From a bacterium (GTDB lineage Bacteria > UBA9089 > CG2-30-40-21 > SBAY01): 14,629 nucleotides of DNA. A program made the position numbers and the translations under genes. The stretch spans positions 1 through 14,629 of the forward strand of contig JBFLYA010000091.1 of the NCBI GenBank assembly GCA_040757115.1, given 5' to 3'. The notes below the pieces were generated by a model. It worked only from the letters and a program-made list of their open reading frames with translations, was not told the DNA's origin and made no database searches. Positions 3,172-14,401 of this stretch are shown piece after piece; the stretch's first letter is position 1, and every line of letters begins with the position of its first letter.

Positions 3172-3429
3172 CTACTTTAAATCCCAATCAGGAACTCTTC
3201 TGCTGGGAATTTTATTTAAAATCTGATTCACTCTCGCCTTTAATGCCGATATTGATTTTCTTTTTAATCTTAATTCAAGCGAAGAAATCAGTTCCATTTG
3301 AGTTAGTTGAACATTTAGCAAATAATTCGTTAATTGATTTAATGAAACTCCTTGATATTTAGATTCCCTTTCCAATCTTTTTTTCATCTCTACTGGTATT
3401 CTTATTGTAACAACCTGTGTTTTATTCAT
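3172..3429 (-). CDS. Ribbon-helix-helix (CopG/Arc-like) antitoxin
   Basis: Small DNA-binding protein of 85 aa. The N-terminus TQVVTIRIPVEMKKRLE followed by GVSLNQLTNYLL fits a ribbon-helix-helix fold: one beta strand (residues 4-10) and two helices (about 12-22 and 28-42). The basic C-terminal half (LRLKRKS, ARVNQILNKIP) would be the toxin-binding or flexible part. ATG at 3429 has a very good GGAGG 7 nt upstream, inside the toxin gene. Its start overlaps the PIN gene stop by 8 nt, so the two are translationally linked. Expected role: neutralise the PIN nuclease and repress the shared promoter. Function is inferred from fold plus context. Confidence 0.8.
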   Translation of the reverse strand: MNKTQVVTIRIPVEMKKRLERESKYQGVSLNQLTNYLLNVQLTQMELISSLELRLKRKSISALKARVNQILNKIPSRRVPDWDLK

Positions 3430-3856
3430 GATTTATCCTCCATTGTTTATAAAATTCATTTGGTGTAACAATTTTAAACCTAAATCCTTTTAACTCTCCT
3501 TTCTTGAAATCTTTAACATTTGAAGTAATCAAATAATCGCTATTACTTGCAAAGGCACATTCCATAAAAATATTATCCTTTTCGTCTATCAGGTTTGGTC
3601 TGAGTAAAAAATAAATAGAATGTTTTTGAGATAATGCAGCTAATAAATCTAAAGTATCTTCTACTTCAGACACTGTTAAATTCAGTACTTTTAGATTTTT
3701 TTCTCTTGTAAGCACATCATAATATTCCAAATAGGTTTGTAGTGATAAGGCTAATTTTATTTCTTCTTGTAAAATAAGTTGTAGAATATAATTAGATGCA
3801 CCTGATTTACTATACAGAGCTGAGTAAATTACATTTGTATCAACCGTTATTATCAT
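3422..3856 (-). CDS. PIN-domain toxin ribonuclease (COG1569-like)
   Basis: Putative RNase toxin of the PIN superfamily, 144 aa from the start used. MIITVDTNVIYSAL has the first catalytic Asp (D5, in VDTN). The second acidic position is E35 or E44 (in EEIKLALS or LEYYDVL). LIDEKDNIFMECAFASNSDYLITSNVKDF carries the D-x-D-N and E...D...(T/S)-x-(N/D)-x-D-F pattern typical of COG1569 toxins. I chose ATG 3856 over the upstream ATG 3910 because the extra 18 residues are unlike the family and the promoter at 3863-3891 lies inside that extension. The gene precedes its antitoxin, the reverse of the usual VapBC order. The leader appears to be nearly absent. Confidence 0.87.
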   Translation of the reverse strand: MIITVDTNVIYSALYSKSGASNYILQLILQEEIKLALSLQTYLEYYDVLTREKNLKVLNLTVSEVEDTLDLLAALSQKHSIYFLLRPNLIDEKDNIFMECAFASNSDYLITSNVKDFKKGELKGFRFKIVTPNEFYKQWRINHE

Positions 3857-3862
3857 ATGGTA

Positions 3863-3891
3863 ATAATAGTATATTTGAATACAAAAGTCAA
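3863..3891 (-). promoter_or_regulatory. Promoter of the PIN/RHH pair, possibly leaderless
   Basis: On the minus strand: TTGACT (3891-3886), 17-bp spacer, TATTAT (3868-3863). The ATG of the PIN gene begins 6 nt after the -10 box, so the expected transcription start falls at or next to the start codon. No Shine-Dalgarno fits between. Confidence 0.6.
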
Positions 3892-3932
3892 ATAATAATT
3901 TTTTGGGCATCCATCTTACCCTAACGAAATTA

Positions 3933-4186
3933 GTAACCGTTCACCGCAGAGACACAGAGACGCAGAGAAAAAATTAAAAACTATTTACCAGACGCAGAAT
4001 TCCATCACGGATTTTCATCAGTGCAAGCTTTTGAGGACCGACATATCATGATTGATTAACAAATTTGGTTTTGATGTCCTATGTAGGACAATGATTGCAT
4101 CAATAATCTTTTCTGTTATCTGATTTATTTCCATGTCTTCTCTGTTCCTCTGCGTCTCTGCGGTAAATTACCACCTGAACGGTTAC
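3933..4186 (-). mobile_element. MITE-like element A (GTAAC-ended, GxxExxY-cassette derivative)
   Basis: 254-bp unit bounded by GTAACCGTTCA at 3933 and its inverse TGAACGGTTAC ending at 4186. Inside these tips lie inverted arms containing CCGCAGAGAC...GCAGAG. The arms differ in a fixed way. The gene-start arm (right end, minus strand) has a 12-nt insert GGTGGTAATTTA between tip and CCGCAGAG. The gene-end arm has CACAGAGACGCAGAG followed by an A-rich run. The same asymmetry is present in the elements at 6574 and 6953. Flanks extend the inverted repeat imperfectly (ACGAAATTA before, AATTCGT after). No target duplication is evident. Confidence 0.75.
3974..4134 (-). pseudogene. Internally deleted GxxExxY-family gene remnant in element A
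   Basis: From ATG 4134 the minus strand reads MEINQITEKIIDAI, then VLHRTSKPN, then LLINHDMSVLKSLH and a stop. The first part matches the typical GxxExxY N-terminus (M-x-(I/L)-N-x-I-T-x-KII-x-A-x-I-x-VH-R). LLIN...V.VLK matches the segment near the C-terminus (LLINFNV..LK). The conserved middle, including the GxxExxY motif, is missing. In another frame the end continues MKIRDGILRLVNSF and TAA (3974-3976), which looks like the family C-terminus after a frameshift. About 160 bp remain of an expected ~375-400 bp. The family assignment is from memory of its consensus. Confidence 0.6.
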
Positions 4187-4316
4187 AATTCGTGAACCGG
4201 GTTCGGGAGCCGTGTCCCTAAATTAGGCTGAAGGGTTTTTCTCCTGTTGTCCTCTGCCTTCTGCCCTCTGCTACTTATCTGTGCTAATCCGTGTTAATCA
4301 GTGGCTGAATAGTTAC
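4187..4316. repeat. CAGCCAC-type repeat, one-ended copy
   Basis: Ends in GTGGCTGAATAGTTAC (4301-4316), identical in its last 15 bases to the right end of the 9453-9869 element. The preceding CTCTGCCTTCTGCCCTCTGC and GCTAATCCGTGTTAATC also match that element, as does TTAGGCTGAAGGGTT near 4225. The left tip is missing: the copy abuts element A directly. There is no gene here. Confidence 0.65.
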
Positions 4317-4379
4317 TTTATTTCTATGTCTTCTCTGTTTCTCTGCGTCTCTGCGGTAAAGGATTACCTGAACGGTTAC
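4317..4379 (-). repeat. Half-element D: gene-start arm of the GxxExxY-type element
   Basis: The minus strand from 4379 reads GTAACCGTTCAGGTAATCC, then ACCGCAGAGACGCAGAG, then AAACAGAGAAGACATAGAAATAAA (in part). It is the gene-start arm of element A continued to the third or fourth codon of the cargo gene, but with ATG changed to ATA. It stops exactly at the GTTAC tip of the CAGCCAC-type repeat. It lies 6 bp beyond the stop of the response regulator gene. Confidence 0.65.
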
Positions 4380-4385
4380 CCTTCC

Positions 4386-4754
4386 TTATAACTCTTCACT
4401 GTTCACTATCTTCTTTATCCTTGCATTTAAGTTTTTAAGTTCAAATGGCTTAAGTATGAATGCCGCCGCATCTAAATCTATAACCGGGGATTCATCAGCC
4501 GCGACACTTAAAATAACAATGGGTATTTCTTTATATCTGTTTCTTATCTGGCTAAATAACTCTAAGCCATATTCTAATAAGGGAAGTTTCATATCATGGA
4601 TGATGAGGTCATATTTTTGTTGGGCTAATGTTTCTAAAGCCTTCTCTGCTTCCTTAACCACAGTTATTAAATAACCCTGTTTTTCAAAATTGTATTTTAA
4701 AATCCTGGCTATCGGTGGGTCATCTTCAATAACTAAAATCTTTTTTTTATCCAT
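4386..4754 (-). CDS. Stand-alone receiver-domain response regulator
   Basis: CheY-like phosphoacceptor protein, 122 aa, single REC domain without an output domain. Acidic pair D11/D12, phosphoacceptor D54 (LIIHDMKLP), S83 as the conserved Ser/Thr and K102 (FILKPFE) are in place, so it should be phosphorylatable. The start ATG 4754 has AAAGGAG 10 nt upstream. It follows the histidine kinase gene on the same strand after 71 bp and is the obvious partner; output is presumably by protein contact or a phosphorelay. The last residues (IVNSEEL) are encoded by GTGAACAGTGAAGAG, which echoes GTGAACAG repeats in the 4772-4800 spacer. The cognate signal is unknown. Confidence 0.93.
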   Translation of the reverse strand: MDKKKILVIEDDPPIARILKYNFEKQGYLITVVKEAEKALETLAQQKYDLIIHDMKLPLLEYGLELFSQIRNRYKEIPIVILSVAADESPVIDLDAAAFILKPFELKNLNARIKKIVNSEEL

Positions 4755-4825
4755 AGTTATTTTACTCCTTTGTGAACAGTGGGGACTGAAAAGTGAACAG
4801 GAAACAACTCTTCATTCTTCAGTGA

Positions 4826-6487
4826 CTACTCTTTCGGTAATGTAAAAATAAAGGAACTCCCTTTTCCGGGCTCACTCTCTACCCAAATCTTACCTCCATG
4901 TGTCTCGATTATATGTTTTACCAGAGTTAAACCTAATCCCATACCTTTTGTTTCTCTGGTCATTGGGGATTCTAATTGATAAAATGGGGTGAAAATTTCA
5001 TCTAATTTATCTCTGGAAATTCCCTGCCCAGTATCACTCACACAAACTTTAATTTCATCTCCACTTCTTTCTGCGGCTATCTTTACCTCTCCACCAGCTG
5101 GCGTAAATTTAATTCCATTTTCTATCAGATGTTCTACCGCAGTCTTAATTTTATGATAATCTCCAAATATCTGTGGTAAATCCTTCGGAATATTAACAAT
5201 TAATTTTATCTTCTTATCCTTTGCTATCTTTTCTAATCTGGTTTGCTCTTCTGGTTTTAAATGGTCAATTAACTCTGCGACTAATTGAGACAAGTTAATT
5301 GCTCTCTTTCTCAAAGGAATATGTTTAATATCCAGCTCACTCAGCATAAGTATCTGGTTAATTTCTCGAGTTAAGGCATCACTCTCTGAATTAATTATTT
5401 CTAAAAACTCTTTTTCCTCCTCTGGGGTTTCCTCACCATCTAATAATGTTTCTGTGTATGCCTTGATAGAAGAAAGTGGTGTTCTCAATTCATGGCTAAT
5501 TAAGGATAAAAAGTTACTCCTCATACGGGCAAGCAATTCTTCAGAAGTTACATCTCTGGAAACAATCACGACACCCATTACTTTATTATGACTATTTTTT
5601 AAAGAGGTCATTTTTAATGTTAAAATTTCTTTTTTATGAGTAGCCGGATTAGTTATTTCTATTTCTTCTTCGGTAAGATGATTTTCTATGATTGCCTCTT
5701 TCAGTAGCGTTGGCAGTTTTTCATCCTGAATAAATTCAATTATTGATTTATTTAGCATCTCACCATCAGTATGTCCTAACATCTGTTGTGCGACGGAATT
5801 AACCATCTGTATTTTTAAGTCAACATCCGTGACAATTAAACCATCAGCCATATTATTTATGATATTCTCAAGAAAATCTTTAGTAAATTTTTCTCTGGAC
5901 TTACTTTTATCCAGTTCACTAATCTTTTCCCTGATTACTTTGCCCAGATAACCGCTAATAAATACGGTAACATAGAAAAAGGCACTATTCAGTCCTAATA
6001 AACAAAATGTATAAAAATTACTATCATAAATACAACCGACAATAGGGACGACATGGCGATGAGGAATAATCCCTAAATATTCTAAGAGGATAAAGAAGGT
6101 GTAGGAGAAAATAATGATGGTCGTGATTACCATAGTTACTCTTAATCCTGAAACAATTCCACAGGCAAGGATGTAAAAAAATACCAGAGGCGTAAGGAAA
6201 CTTTCTATACCTCCTGTGACATAGATACATGCTAATATCAGAAAGAAATCAAATATCCTTGATAGATATAGGAGTAACAATAAGACTCTTTCGTATTTTA
6301 TCAGGAAGATACAAATGATACCTCCTATATAGGATATCAGGGTGAGAATCATTATTGGTCTTACCGGGAAGGCTATCCAAAAATAGTTAATGATGATGGT
6401 TATACCCAGAACTAATGTAGTAATAATGAGGCGGTGTCGATTGTATGCCTTAAGAATTTTTATCATTTGAGTATTATCTAATTTCAT
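4826..6487 (-). CDS. Membrane-bound PAS sensor histidine kinase
   Basis: Inner-membrane hybrid-free histidine kinase, 553 aa. About six hydrophobic segments lie between residues 18 and 183 (for example 20-38, 44-63, 67-90, 100-117, 118-138, 158-182). After a short linker comes a PAS domain (about 205-315; NNMADGLIVTDVDLKIQMVN), then HisKA with phosphoacceptor H332 in SHELRTPLSSIKAYTETLL. The ATPase domain has N457 (N box), DTGQGI (485-490) and GMGLGL (515-520). All catalytic motifs are intact. Start ATG 6487 has AGAGGA 6 nt upstream and a good promoter (6507-6535). It is followed by its likely partner, a receiver-only protein. There is no periplasmic sensor domain; the six-TM module or PAS pocket is the likely input. 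Confidence 0.95.
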   Translation of the reverse strand: MKLDNTQMIKILKAYNRHRLIITTLVLGITIIINYFWIAFPVRPIMILTLISYIGGIICIFLIKYERVLLLLLYLSRIFDFFLILACIYVTGGIESFLTPLVFFYILACGIVSGLRVTMVITTIIIFSYTFFILLEYLGIIPHRHVVPIVGCIYDSNFYTFCLLGLNSAFFYVTVFISGYLGKVIREKISELDKSKSREKFTKDFLENIINNMADGLIVTDVDLKIQMVNSVAQQMLGHTDGEMLNKSIIEFIQDEKLPTLLKEAIIENHLTEEEIEITNPATHKKEILTLKMTSLKNSHNKVMGVVIVSRDVTSEELLARMRSNFLSLISHELRTPLSSIKAYTETLLDGEETPEEEKEFLEIINSESDALTREINQILMLSELDIKHIPLRKRAINLSQLVAELIDHLKPEEQTRLEKIAKDKKIKLIVNIPKDLPQIFGDYHKIKTAVEHLIENGIKFTPAGGEVKIAAERSGDEIKVCVSDTGQGISRDKLDEIFTPFYQLESPMTRETKGMGLGLTLVKHIIETHGGKIWVESEPGKGSSFIFTLPKE

Positions 6488-6506
6488 TTTTTATCCTCTA
6501 ATAAAT

Positions 6507-6535
6507 ATTATATCAAATAATTATTCTAAATGCAA
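6507..6535 (-). promoter_or_regulatory. Promoter of the histidine kinase / response regulator pair
   Basis: On the minus strand: TTGCAT (6535-6530), 17-bp spacer, TATAAT (6512-6507), leaving a leader of about 13-19 nt. Immediately upstream (6536-6553) is CACAGGTGGAAAAATTTT, an A/T-tailed motif shared with two other promoters in the window. Confidence 0.75.
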
Positions 6536-6573
6536 CAAAATTTTTCCACCTGTGCGGTTAGGGTGAGAAAAAG

Positions 6574-6810
6574 GTAACTGTTCAGATAGTAATTCACCGC
6601 AGAGACGCAGAGAAACAGAGAGGAAAATATCTTTTTTTTTCGTGTTTTTCGGTGTTTAAAAAAGTTTAAAAACAGTTAGGTGAAAGTAAGTATTAAAAGA
6701 TTAATAAACAACGAAAGACCCGAAATGCACAAAAAAAGGAAATTTCTGTCTCTGGTGAATAGATTTTAATTTTTTCTCTGCGTCTCTGTGTCTCTGCGGT
6801 GAACGGTTAC
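6574..6810 (+). mobile_element. MITE-like element B (GTAAC-ended)
   Basis: 237-bp unit from GTAACTGTTCAG to TGAACGGTTAC. The left arm AATTCACCGCAGAGACGCAG and the right arm (inverse of CCGCAGAGACACAGAGACG) match elements A and C. The interior is largely unrelated A-rich sequence, but just before the right arm the plus strand reads K-F-L-S-L-V-N-R-F and TAA (6740-6769). This aligns base for base with the cargo-gene end of element A. The flanks are inverted: GAAAAAG before and CTTTTTC after, which extends the palindrome. No target duplication is visible. Confidence 0.7.
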
Positions 6811-6909
6811 CTTTTTCCGCTAAATCCGTTAAATCCGCTTACAAAATCCACCCGCTTACTATTAAAATCTGCTTCCTTAATTTTCTACCTGCACAGGTCG
6901 AAATTTTTC

Positions 6910-6937
6910 TTGACTTTTTTGTATATAATGATAAAAT
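6910..6937 (+). promoter_or_regulatory. Candidate promoter of the glycosyltransferase operon
   Basis: TTGACT (6910-6915), 16-bp spacer, TAAAAT (6932-6937). It is separated from the first gene (7250) by element C, which starts only 15 bp downstream of the -10 box. The motif CACAGGTCGAAATTTTT (6894-6910) abuts the -35 box. Confidence 0.5.
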
Positions 6938-6952
6938 GAATAAGAATTATGG

Positions 6953-7228
6953 GTAACCGTTCAGGTGGTAATTTACCGCAGAGACGCAGAGGAACAGAGA
7001 AGATATGGAAATAAATCAGATAACATAAAAGATTATTGAGGCAGATATGGAAATACATCGGACCTGCTTGCCGAATGTTCAGCAGGCAAGCCAGATTGGT
7101 TAATCAATTTTAATGTTGCTGAACTCAAGAGCTTACCCTGATGAAAATCAGGGAGGGAATTGTTGCCTCTCGTCCATAGATTTTAATTTTTTTCTCTGCG
7201 TCTCTGTGTCTCTGCGGTGAACGGTTAC
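6953..7228 (+). mobile_element. MITE-like element C (GTAAC-ended, GxxExxY-cassette derivative)
   Basis: 276-bp unit from GTAACCGTTCAGG (6953) to TGAACGGTTAC (ends 7228). Its gene-start arm is identical to that of element A over the first 51 bases. Its gene-end arm shares TTCTCTGCGTCTCTGTGTCT and the following CTGCGGTGAACGGTTAC with elements A and B. It sits between the -10 box at 6932 and the GGAGG at 7231 of the glycosyltransferase operon, so it lies inside the 5' leader if that promoter is used. The interior holds a hairpin (GCTTGCC at 7067-7073 with GGCAAGC at 7085-7091). Confidence 0.75.
7005..7186 (+). pseudogene. Internally deleted GxxExxY-family gene remnant in element C
   Basis: From ATG 7005: MEINQIT, stop, KIIEADMEIHRT, the first ~20 codons of a GxxExxY-type protein with a TAA in place of codon 8 (GAA in element A). 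A deletion follows. Further on, another frame reads LINFNVAELKSLP and stop, the near-C-terminal segment of the family. The 3' end (MKIREGIVASR, then TAA at 7184-7186) aligns with element A. Both A and C lose the frame at the same place after the LK codons, so they may descend from one already broken copy. Confidence 0.6.
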
Positions 7229-9452: not shown

Positions 9453-9869
9453 GTAACTATTCAGCCACAGATGGACACGGATGAAACACTGAAAATTCGT
9501 AATCTGTGTCCGTTTTCCGTGTCCGTAATTAGGCTGAAGGGTTCTTCTGAAAATCGGGACTCGGGACTCGGGGTTCGGGACTCGGGAAGGCTGGTAGGCG
9601 CACGACCCATGCTCTGCATGGGTGCCCCGAGCCTGATTTCATCTGTGTCAGTGGAGGAAATTTCTACCCCCTAACCCCCGCCAGCGGGGGATAATCGATT
9701 CTGAAATATTCACCAAATGAGGTAGTCATCCCTAACCCCCGCCAGCGGGGGATAATCCGCCTCTGACCTCTGTCTTCTGTCTCCTCTGCCCTCTGCCTTC
9801 TGCCCTCTGCCTTCTGCCCTTTGCTATTTATCCGTGTCAATCTGTGTTAATCCGTGGCTGAATAGTTAC
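9453..9869. mobile_element. Element E: GTAACTATTCAGCCAC-ended mosaic repeat (417 bp)
   Basis: Bounded by GTAACTATTCAGCCAC (9453-9468) and its exact inverse GTGGCTGAATAGTTAC (9854-9869). Inside are several different repeat types: GATGGACACGGATGAA and ATCCGTG...TGTGTTAATCC near the ends; a GGGACTC tandem (9555-9587); a perfect hairpin ACCCATGC-TCT-GCATGGGT (9605-9623); two copies of a C-rich palindrome (9669-9757); and a CTCTGCC/TTCTGCC tandem (about 9762-9824). No gene is supported: the longest open frame is made of repeat sequence. It separates the convergent GT9 and leuC-type genes. Confidence 0.7.
9669..9757. repeat. Two copies of a CCCCTAACCCCCGCC hairpin repeat
   Basis: A 28-bp unit (CCCTAACCCCCGCCAGCGGG and the following GGATAATC) occurs at 9669-9696 and 9730-9757. 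Each forms a stem CCCCCG/CGGGGG with loop CCAG. A related form with CCCCCTT-TATT-AAGGGGG lies at 11177-11194. Confidence 0.75.
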
Positions 9870-12644: not shown

Positions 12645-14028
12645 CTAAGAAGAATCCAGGCGGATTTGGTAAGGTTGAGACAGGTTTTTCAGGATATTAT
12701 CTACCTCAATCAGTTGTCTGGTAAAGGCAAACAATAATCCCCTGGTGAAGTTCTTAAAACTACCAAAAACCTTGACAATGTTTTTAAGTCCATTGCCTTT
12801 GATCATTAGTTGTCTAATGGTATGAGCAATTTGCAGGAGAAGATGAAAACATTTGATCGCATTATAGTTTTGGCTATAAGCGTGTTCCAGCTCAAACCCC
12901 TCTTTTTTCTGAGCTTTAAATCCTTGATTTTCAATTTTCCATCGGCTTCGACCTCCTTGATTAGCTAAATGTTTGTAATTTGTCTTTGTAATCTTTGTCT
13001 TGCATATCCAGGTAAAAAAGGTCTTCTCCTCACCTTTCTTTCCTGAGGTTGTCTCTTGACATTCGAGGATATGAAGTTTATGCCCTTCGTATTCAATATC
13101 ATTAACCCAGTGAAAGTCCTGGCTGGTATTAGCATTGACTTGATGTGTCCCTTTATTTTCCGGACTAAGCTGGAGCAAATTCTGAAATTCCTTGTAAACA
13201 CTGGGCATACTACCTTCTTTAAATCGAATGATGTAAATCCAGCCATTTTTCTCTACTAAATCAAATACGGGTTTCCCTGCATACAAGCTGTCAAATAACA
13301 AACAAAATTTGGTGCGAGGAAAATGTCCTTTCAACCTTTGAGCTAAACGATAAAAAGCCTTTAATTCACAATCTTGCCTATCTAGATCTTGTGATTCATT
13401 TTCGACAAACTCAGTCAGGACTGGAATCGCAAAACCATCAGGAGTGACCAATTTTGCTTCTAAAACATAGTAGTAATATTCATAATGGGTTTGCCCATTT
13501 TCATCCTGGCTAATCTTTTTTCTTAAACAATGTTTGTATTTATCCGGATCTTTCTTATACTGGTCTTCAGTAATGGTTATAGTTTTGGTACCATCAATAG
13601 CTATTAATATAGTATTGGTTTAACAACCGATACCTTTCTAATACCCTTTGTCGGATTAAACGTCGAATCATTTCTATACAGATTTTCTCTAAGTCGGTTG
13701 GAGACAATTTAACCAGAAGGTCAATTAATGTCCCGTGATGAGGCATCCTTTCCAGGCTATAGTCTTGAATACTTAAGAGAGGAAATAATGCTTTGAAATT
13801 AGCTAAGAATTCCTTCCCAAAGGTATAATCAATATTACGGCTGGAACCTAACTGAAACAGAAACAAAAACAAGCCTTCCCAGAATAAGATGCCTAACTCA
13901 TAATCAGTCATATTTACCGAACGATGATCATGAATTTGCAAAACCTATTTTCCTATCTTAGGAAAGAAATGATGAATCGTCTTGGCAAATATCTCGGGTA
14001 TTTTTTCGATTTGCTCTTCGTCCTTCAT
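12645..14028 (-). pseudogene. IS4-like DDE transposase, broken by one stop and one frameshift
   Basis: The minus strand starts at ATG 14028 (GGAGG 7 nt upstream): MKDEEQIEKIPEIF...HHFFPKIGK, then TAG (13947-13945), then in the same frame VLQIHDHRSVNMTDYELGIL and on to NQYYINSY and TGA (13596-13594). The TAG stands where the family usually has Trp, so one G-to-A change explains it. Between about 13612 and 13602 the frame shifts by +1; the new frame reads ILIAIDGT with the first catalytic Asp at 13595-13593, then runs open to 12645. It contains LLFDSLYAGKPVF (second Asp) and RWKIENQGFKAQKK (the Glu region, like the IS4 Y-R-E-K signature). Two lesions make it inactive unless recoded. The family level is a fair call; the exact IS group is not determined. 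Confidence 0.85.
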
Positions 14029-14401
14029 TAACTTTCCTCCTTCCTATTAATATTTCTCTATATTGGTTAAAGAGGGTATCTATTTTCCCATAGATTTTCC
14101 TCAAAGCAGAGAGTTTATCCTGGTATTGCATATAAGCTCTAACTTTTTTAACCGTAGCCTCATCGCTCTTCTTGCCTACATACCGTTGTTTTAACTTTCC
14201 ATTGACCTTTTGGCTTAGGTACAAGAAAGGACCGTGTTTTTCACCCCGTGTACACTTGCAATTACCTTTTCGACAAGCAGTATAAATTTGGAACAATGAA
14301 CCTGCCTCCATTCTGGATCGGATTTGCATTAGACTGTTTTCCAAAAAACCCCTTTCTTTTTGCAATAGAGAGATTTTCTTCCTTATTTCTGATAAATCCA
14401 T
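13958..14401 (-). CDS. DUF6788-like small ORF of the IS unit
   Basis: 147-aa protein with an N-terminal coiled-coil-like helix (residues 1-35), then YTACRKGNCKCTRGEKHGPF (40-59) and YLSQKVNGK. The Cys pattern C43, C48, C50 plus HGP..YLS is typical, from memory, of DUF6788 proteins encoded next to transposases. Its role is unknown; DNA or transposase binding is a guess. The start ATG 14401 has AAAGGAGG about 8 nt upstream and a promoter at 14457-14485. Its 3' end overlaps the transposase start by 71 nt. The last ~25 residues are rich in Arg, Asn and Asp and look like out-of-frame transposase sequence, so an earlier natural stop may have been lost. There is no internal break. Confidence 0.75.
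   Translation of the reverse strand: MDLSEIRKKISLLQKERGFLENSLMQIRSRMEAGSLFQIYTACRKGNCKCTRGEKHGPFLYLSQKVNGKLKQRYVGKKSDEATVKKVRAYMQYQDKLSALRKIYGKIDTLFNQYREILIGRRKVNEGRRANRKNTRDICQDDSSFLS

Follow-up and report, generated by a model that had tools for sequence, protein, structure and literature searches.

A 14,629-nt stretch of bacterial DNA (hereafter the window, meaning the whole stretch analysed) carries three short related elements, designated A, B, and C, and the question that this locus raises is what they derive from and what moved them. A first-pass annotation read them as remains of a cassette with a GxxExxY gene. The GTAAC tips and asymmetric CCGCAGAGAC arms that it described are present in all three elements, and its placement of A, B, and C was correct, except that the strand of A has been changed to minus. 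The relevant features of the window are as follows.

3933..4186, minus strand: element A, an IS66-tipped, internally deleted derivative of a GxxExxY cassette, with N-terminal codons at the 4186 side and C-terminal codons at the 3933 side
3933..3943, plus strand: outer tip of A, GTAACCGTTCA, an IS66-type end
4176..4186, minus strand: outer tip at the opposite end of A
4321..4378, minus strand: one end, truncated, of a further element with CAGAG arms and a GTAAC tip
6574..6810, plus strand: element B, with IS66 tips, CAGAG arms, the last GxxExxY codons, and an unrelated interior
6953..7228, plus strand: element C, an IS66-tipped, internally deleted derivative of a GxxExxY cassette
6953..6963, plus strand: outer tip of C, GTAACCGTTCA
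6976..7000, plus strand: inner arm of C on the 5′ side of the gene, with CRCRRAG units
7006..7066, plus strand: N-terminal codons of the GxxExxY gene left in C (MEINQIT...), containing a stop codon
7192..7217, minus strand: inner arm of C on the 3′ side of the gene
7218..7228, minus strand: outer tip at the opposite end of C
9453..9869, no strand assigned: another GTAAC-tipped element with CCACAGATGGACACGGATG arms, of the same tip family as A, B, and C and with a different interior

In the genome, CCGCAGAGACGCAGAG is present in 359 copies (≤1 mismatch), compared with 11 for the reversed control, and GTAACCGTTCAGG in 360 exact copies, compared with 1 for its control. Other repeats and gene remnants were also noted in the window. 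A stretch of TCTGCC repeats with a GTAAC tip at its end (CCTCTGCCTTCTGCC..AATAGTTAC) is present twice, at positions 4243–4316 and 9796–9869, the two copies being 86% identical. Positions 8–132 belong to a further multicopy repeat, which at 99% identity matches the right flank of the S23 locus L063 as well as numerous other sites in this genome and in G005. On the minus strand, adjacent HicB-like and PIN-domain genes, a possible toxin–antitoxin pair, lie beside element A (3172–3910), and a fragmented DDE_Tnp_1-type transposase, probably a decayed IS, adjoins a DUF6788 gene (12645–14401). No Rfam family was found in the window.

The 472-bp GxxExxY element of locus L003 served as the reference for aligning the remnants. 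The reverse complement of A shows 92% identity to this element over positions 1–113 and 87% over 398–472, and C shows 92% over 1–106 and 97% over 414–472; both retain the two ends of the L003 element without its middle, and the region of the catalytic D, E, and K residues is missing from both remnants. Element B matches the reference solely over 1–51 (88%) and 420–472 (96%), i.e. the arms and the last codons, in agreement with the original reading, and its interior is unrelated filler that recurs beside L003 and L017. When the remnants in A and C were compared with a home-made profile, they scored 12.8 and 10.1 bits, respectively, whereas the best of 600 shuffled frames scored 6.3 bits. The claim that the arms of A and C enclose both ends of one GxxExxY gene is borne out by these identities and scores. 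Full-length GxxExxY genes between the same arms, which the annotation had suggested searching for, were found at L001, L002, L003, and L005, although those of L003 and L005 contain internal stops. In total, 65 matches to PF13366 (the GxxExxY family, TIGR04256/PF13366) were identified in the 4.3-Mb assembly, ∼20 of them nearly complete and many others covering only the N or C terminus. Many of these matches lie above the curated cut-off, and intact copies, both here and in other genomes, exceed it by far, with scores of 138.7–141.1 bits against a cut-off of 35. A and C are thus very probably internal-deletion derivatives of ∼470-bp GxxExxY-bearing elements that are still present elsewhere in the genome, as judged from these alignments.

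The outer tips do not belong to the cassette itself. A resident IS66-family transposon, now decayed (PF03050 transposase; L197:893-2455), has ends that are identical to the first 13 bp of the GTAAC..TTCA tips; it starts with GTAACCGTTCAGG and ends with its complement. IS66 elements, as grouped among the ISfinder families, have GTAA ends and generate 8-bp duplications. Among 147 paired GTAA..TTCA tips, counted over 1.47 Mb of the 4.32-Mb genome, 50 are bordered by an exact 8-bp direct repeat (∼0.01 expected) and none by a 9-bp repeat. Because the tips match the resident IS66 ends and the 8-bp duplications are present, the tipped elements are IS66-type MITEs, and an ordinary DDE transposase acting in trans is enough to explain movement in this genome. 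The earlier proposal of a mobile cassette yielding MITE-like copies therefore stands with respect to the GxxExxY cargo and the gutted copies, but not with respect to the GTAAC tips, which are IS66-type rather than the cassette's own; similarly, movement in trans was retained, while the proposed movement through the nuclease fold is not needed here and stays a leading guess for the tipless cassettes of other genomes only. The window elements were probably moved by an IS66 transposase acting in trans and subsequently lost internal sequence. None of A, B, and C has an 8-bp target duplication of its own. The sole sizeable IS66 transposase found in the assembly contains two internal stops, and an active source of transposase was thus not seen. 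This IS66 layer is ordinary MITE biology. The window elements resemble IS66-family MITEs in that their tips match the resident transposon and the family shows 8-bp duplications, but differ from them in their interior, a GxxExxY or S23 cassette that is also present elsewhere without such tips. At L004, L007, L009, and L010, inverted tips of other kinds (ACCTGTGCAA, CGACCTGTGAAATAGG) enclose GxxExxY cassettes, which look like captures by additional element ends.

The inner arms are associated with the GxxExxY gene itself. GxxExxY genes from >15 phyla are enclosed by inverted arms composed of degenerate 8–10-nt units, with no IS66 tips, and inverted CRCRRAG-type arms without GTAAC tips often flank the gene in 80 loci from named genomes of many phyla, including archaea. 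Flanking inverted repeats exceeded the 99th percentile of controls for 62% of the 118 GxxExxY genes sampled from other genomes, and approximately one-third of the GxxExxY genes have no detectable arms. The controls were 273 neighbour genes from the same loci, preferred because shared arms confound a control of mismatched pairs. Further GxxExxY lineages of this genome bear other arms (AAGGAGATA, GGAGAAATGG, CACGAATTA, and GCAAAGGACGCAAAG). Arm similarity tracks protein identity (Mantel r of 0.48, with permutations giving ≤0.19, for GxxExxY; 0.35 for S23, see below), and same-genome GxxExxY pairs are no more alike in their arms than cross-genome pairs in the better-sampled 35–60% identity bins. 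By these measures, the arms go with the protein lineage rather than with the host. Distant cassettes, which occupy unrelated sites, share homology only as far as the vicinity of their arms. The GxxExxY protein tree, in which many forks are poorly resolved, disagrees with the phyla: Mariprofundus is placed with Stieleria, and this genome has two copies among Nitrospinota/Thermodesulfobacteriota and Bacteroidota rows. Copy number is low in most genomes. No fixed target duplication was found at tipless cassettes, where short matches are only weakly in excess.

The predicted structure of the GxxExxY protein (mean pLDDT 95) has as its nearest folds the Cas4 protein SSO0001 (Foldseek E 5.4e-4) and lambda-type exonucleases; a weak Cas4 match was also obtained with PADLOC (E 3.7e-4), and no solved structure was found by sequence match. 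The PD-(D/E)XK catalytic residues are conserved in nearly all of the 138 aligned rows (D67 in 138, E77 in 137, and K79 in 138). The protein thus shares with Cas4/lambda exonuclease-like nucleases the fold, the catalytic D..ExK residues, and a weak sequence match to Cas4, but differs from them in being a stand-alone protein of ∼125 aa whose gene lies between arms of its own. In the cassettes, no recombinase gene was seen linked to it. The dN/dS values between lineages are mostly 0.05–0.15, and those for recent copies within this genome are about 0.4–1.3, with the exception of the L001/L002 pair (0.085). Judged by these ratios, the GxxExxY lineage is under purifying selection, which is relaxed after local multiplication.

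A separate set of cassettes in the same genome carries the S23 gene (PF05635), with 26 matches, most of them between inverted arms. Judged against the same neighbour genes, 87% of 31 S23 genes from other genomes have flanking inverted repeats beyond the 99th percentile. The S23 arms have a periodicity of 7 nt (identities of 59, 58, and 51% at lags of 7, 14, and 21, respectively, vs. 32–33% for shuffled arms), whereas the GxxExxY arms mostly repeat at 8–10 nt. In arm layout, the S23 family shares the plan of the GxxExxY cassette, with 7-nt units. In the Coxiella 23S rRNA IVS, heptameric GACAGAT repeats precede the S23 gene and a 28-bp stem is formed; the S23 IVS is excised by RNase III and has been called a selfish element (PMC4990558). 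The cassettes described here resemble the 23S rRNA IVS with its S23/IVP gene (PF05635, TIGR02436) in having a single small gene within inverted arms of short repeats. They differ from it in several respects: GxxExxY is an unrelated nuclease, and the window elements derive from its gene rather than from that of the four-helix S23/IVP protein; the arm units are of 8–10 nt rather than 7 nt; the cassette sites were read between protein or tRNA genes and not in a 23S rRNA helix; and the mismatches in the GxxExxY arms give no sign of RNA pairing. Two S23 cassettes whose arms are CTCGGG and GGCAGAG, L061 (G000:C42:6810) and L066 (G000:C7:38447), have copies of a CRISPR-like repeat (GACCTGATGAATAAGGGATTGCGAC) on both sides and appear to sit within an array, and a third, L062 (G000:C301:2923), lies between two apparent cas genes.

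A comparison with empty sites in relatives, also suggested in the annotation, yielded both cassette-free and filled sites at the same gaps (L062, L067, and pheA–hisC). For this purpose, 20 stretches were retrieved from relatives, six cassette loci were compared with a subset of them by BLAST, and selected junctions were examined by eye. The L062 cassette is absent in G015. In the tRNA–gyrA gap (L067), an S23 cassette is present in this genome and another, distinct one in G005; G007 has a solo hairpin at this position, and G006 lacks a cassette. In the gap between dsr genes (L082), the S23 cassette of this genome corresponds to solo CACAGAG arms in G005 and to a GTAAGCGTTCAGG tip in G006. The L078 cassette is gutted in G005. 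A pheA–hisC query matched 39 of the 61 Mariprofundaceae genomes searched, and among the loci read, the cassette is absent from this gap in L440–L443 and L445, carries a full GxxExxY gene in L439 and L449, and is gutted in L448, L450, L453, and L457. Gutting with both arms kept thus recurs beyond this phylum and without IS66 tips.

Many cassettes lie within apparent operons, as in fabD-[S23]-fabG, yceD-[S23]-rpmF, tRNA-[S23]-gyrA, and the dsr genes for S23, and in trpD-[GxxExxY]-trpC and nuoK-[GxxExxY]-nuoL (the names of neighbouring genes were read from sequence and are not database assignments). Among armed tipless cassettes with same-strand neighbours, 67 are co-directional with these neighbours and 8 opposed (GxxExxY and S23 summed), whereas the IS66-tipped CAGAG elements of this genome show an 11:11 orientation (Fisher p 0.0002). 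Co-orientation with the operon can be due to selection or to oriented insertion.

We consider nested mobile DNA, with a gene-borne inner cassette, an IS66-type outer layer, and loss of the interior, to be the main reading (probability about 0.8). The inner cassette is a unit of ∼430–550 bp with a single gene for the ∼125-aa Cas4/lambda-exonuclease-like PD-(D/E)XK protein, located close to inverted arms of two to four degenerate 8–10-nt units (main-lineage consensus CRCRRAG, with the outer edge often TTYACC). Such cassettes are probably exchanged across phylum boundaries and take up positions in the intergenic gaps of operons, for the most part in operon orientation. In the present lineage, IS66-type ends (GTAAC..TTCA) adjoin the arms, so that an IS66-family transposase would move the whole in trans as a MITE, with 8-bp duplications. 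Copies then shed the interior, and A, B, and C represent such gutted copies. For the tipless cassettes, we infer that the encoded nuclease may recognise and process its own arms; that this activity moves them is the first-ranked of several unproven options, and we advance it only tentatively. A broader version, which we regard as rather doubtful, holds that GxxExxY cassettes are minimal autonomous mobile elements of bacteria and archaea, in which the Cas4-like nuclease would recognise the arm units and drive oriented insertion into operons without a DDE, HUH, tyrosine, or serine recombinase, S23 cassettes forming a parallel class with heptad arms.

The alternative that everything here is IS66 MITE biology, with GxxExxY as accidental cargo, accounts for the IS66 tips and the 8-bp duplications but is contradicted by the inner layer, since the same arms flank GxxExxY in many phyla without such tips, and it is hardly credible. 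It is also unlikely, though less so, that the arms are operators or terminators of a host gene spread by ordinary horizontal transfer and recombination. The tipless sites without a fixed target duplication and the few copies in most genomes agree with such a gene; homology that ends near the arms at unrelated sites, solo arms around gutted genes, and the same gap with or without a cassette in related genomes argue against it.

The orientation bias bears on two further alternatives. The arms may act in RNA, pairing in the operon transcript so that RNase III excises the guest gene and renders the insertion harmless. The layout, which is that of the S23 IVS removed by RNase III (PMC4990558), and the strong co-orientation favour this possibility, but RNA pairing should favour G.U over A.C mismatches, and the respective counts are 114 vs. 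106 for GxxExxY and 35 vs. 42 for S23 in other genomes. Selection for RNA hairpins in the arms was rejected on the lack of a G.U excess, and we regard the RNA explanation as a whole as improbable, if slightly less so than a host gene with operators or terminators. Alternatively, insertion is random and co-orientation reflects selection only, antisense copies in operons being lost or the gene needing read-through. This explanation is compatible with nested mobile DNA and competes with oriented insertion. The unbiased 11:11 orientation of the IS66-tipped copies and purifying selection on the gene between lineages support it, nothing decisive speaks against it, and we give it close to an even chance; since the tipped copies are mostly dead, the tipped vs. 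tipless comparison does not separate selection from oriented insertion.

No description of GxxExxY as a mobile cassette was found in the part of the literature covered, where two papers name it in passing and one contains PF13366, and two arm sequences searched in the same partial coverage were not found either. Intact cassettes are present in archaea and in many phyla of bacteria, for the most part within operons; they seem to represent widespread, little-noticed mobile elements. The multicopy GxxExxY family, whose function is unassigned, is now linked to a definite genetic unit, and a variety of unexplained intergenic repeats (CACAGAG, GGCAGAG, TTCCAAA, and similar) may be brought under one explanation as the arms and gutted remains of GxxExxY and S23 cassettes. 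A question dating from the first reports of IVSs, namely whether the small protein encoded by such an element moves the element, thereby becomes testable.
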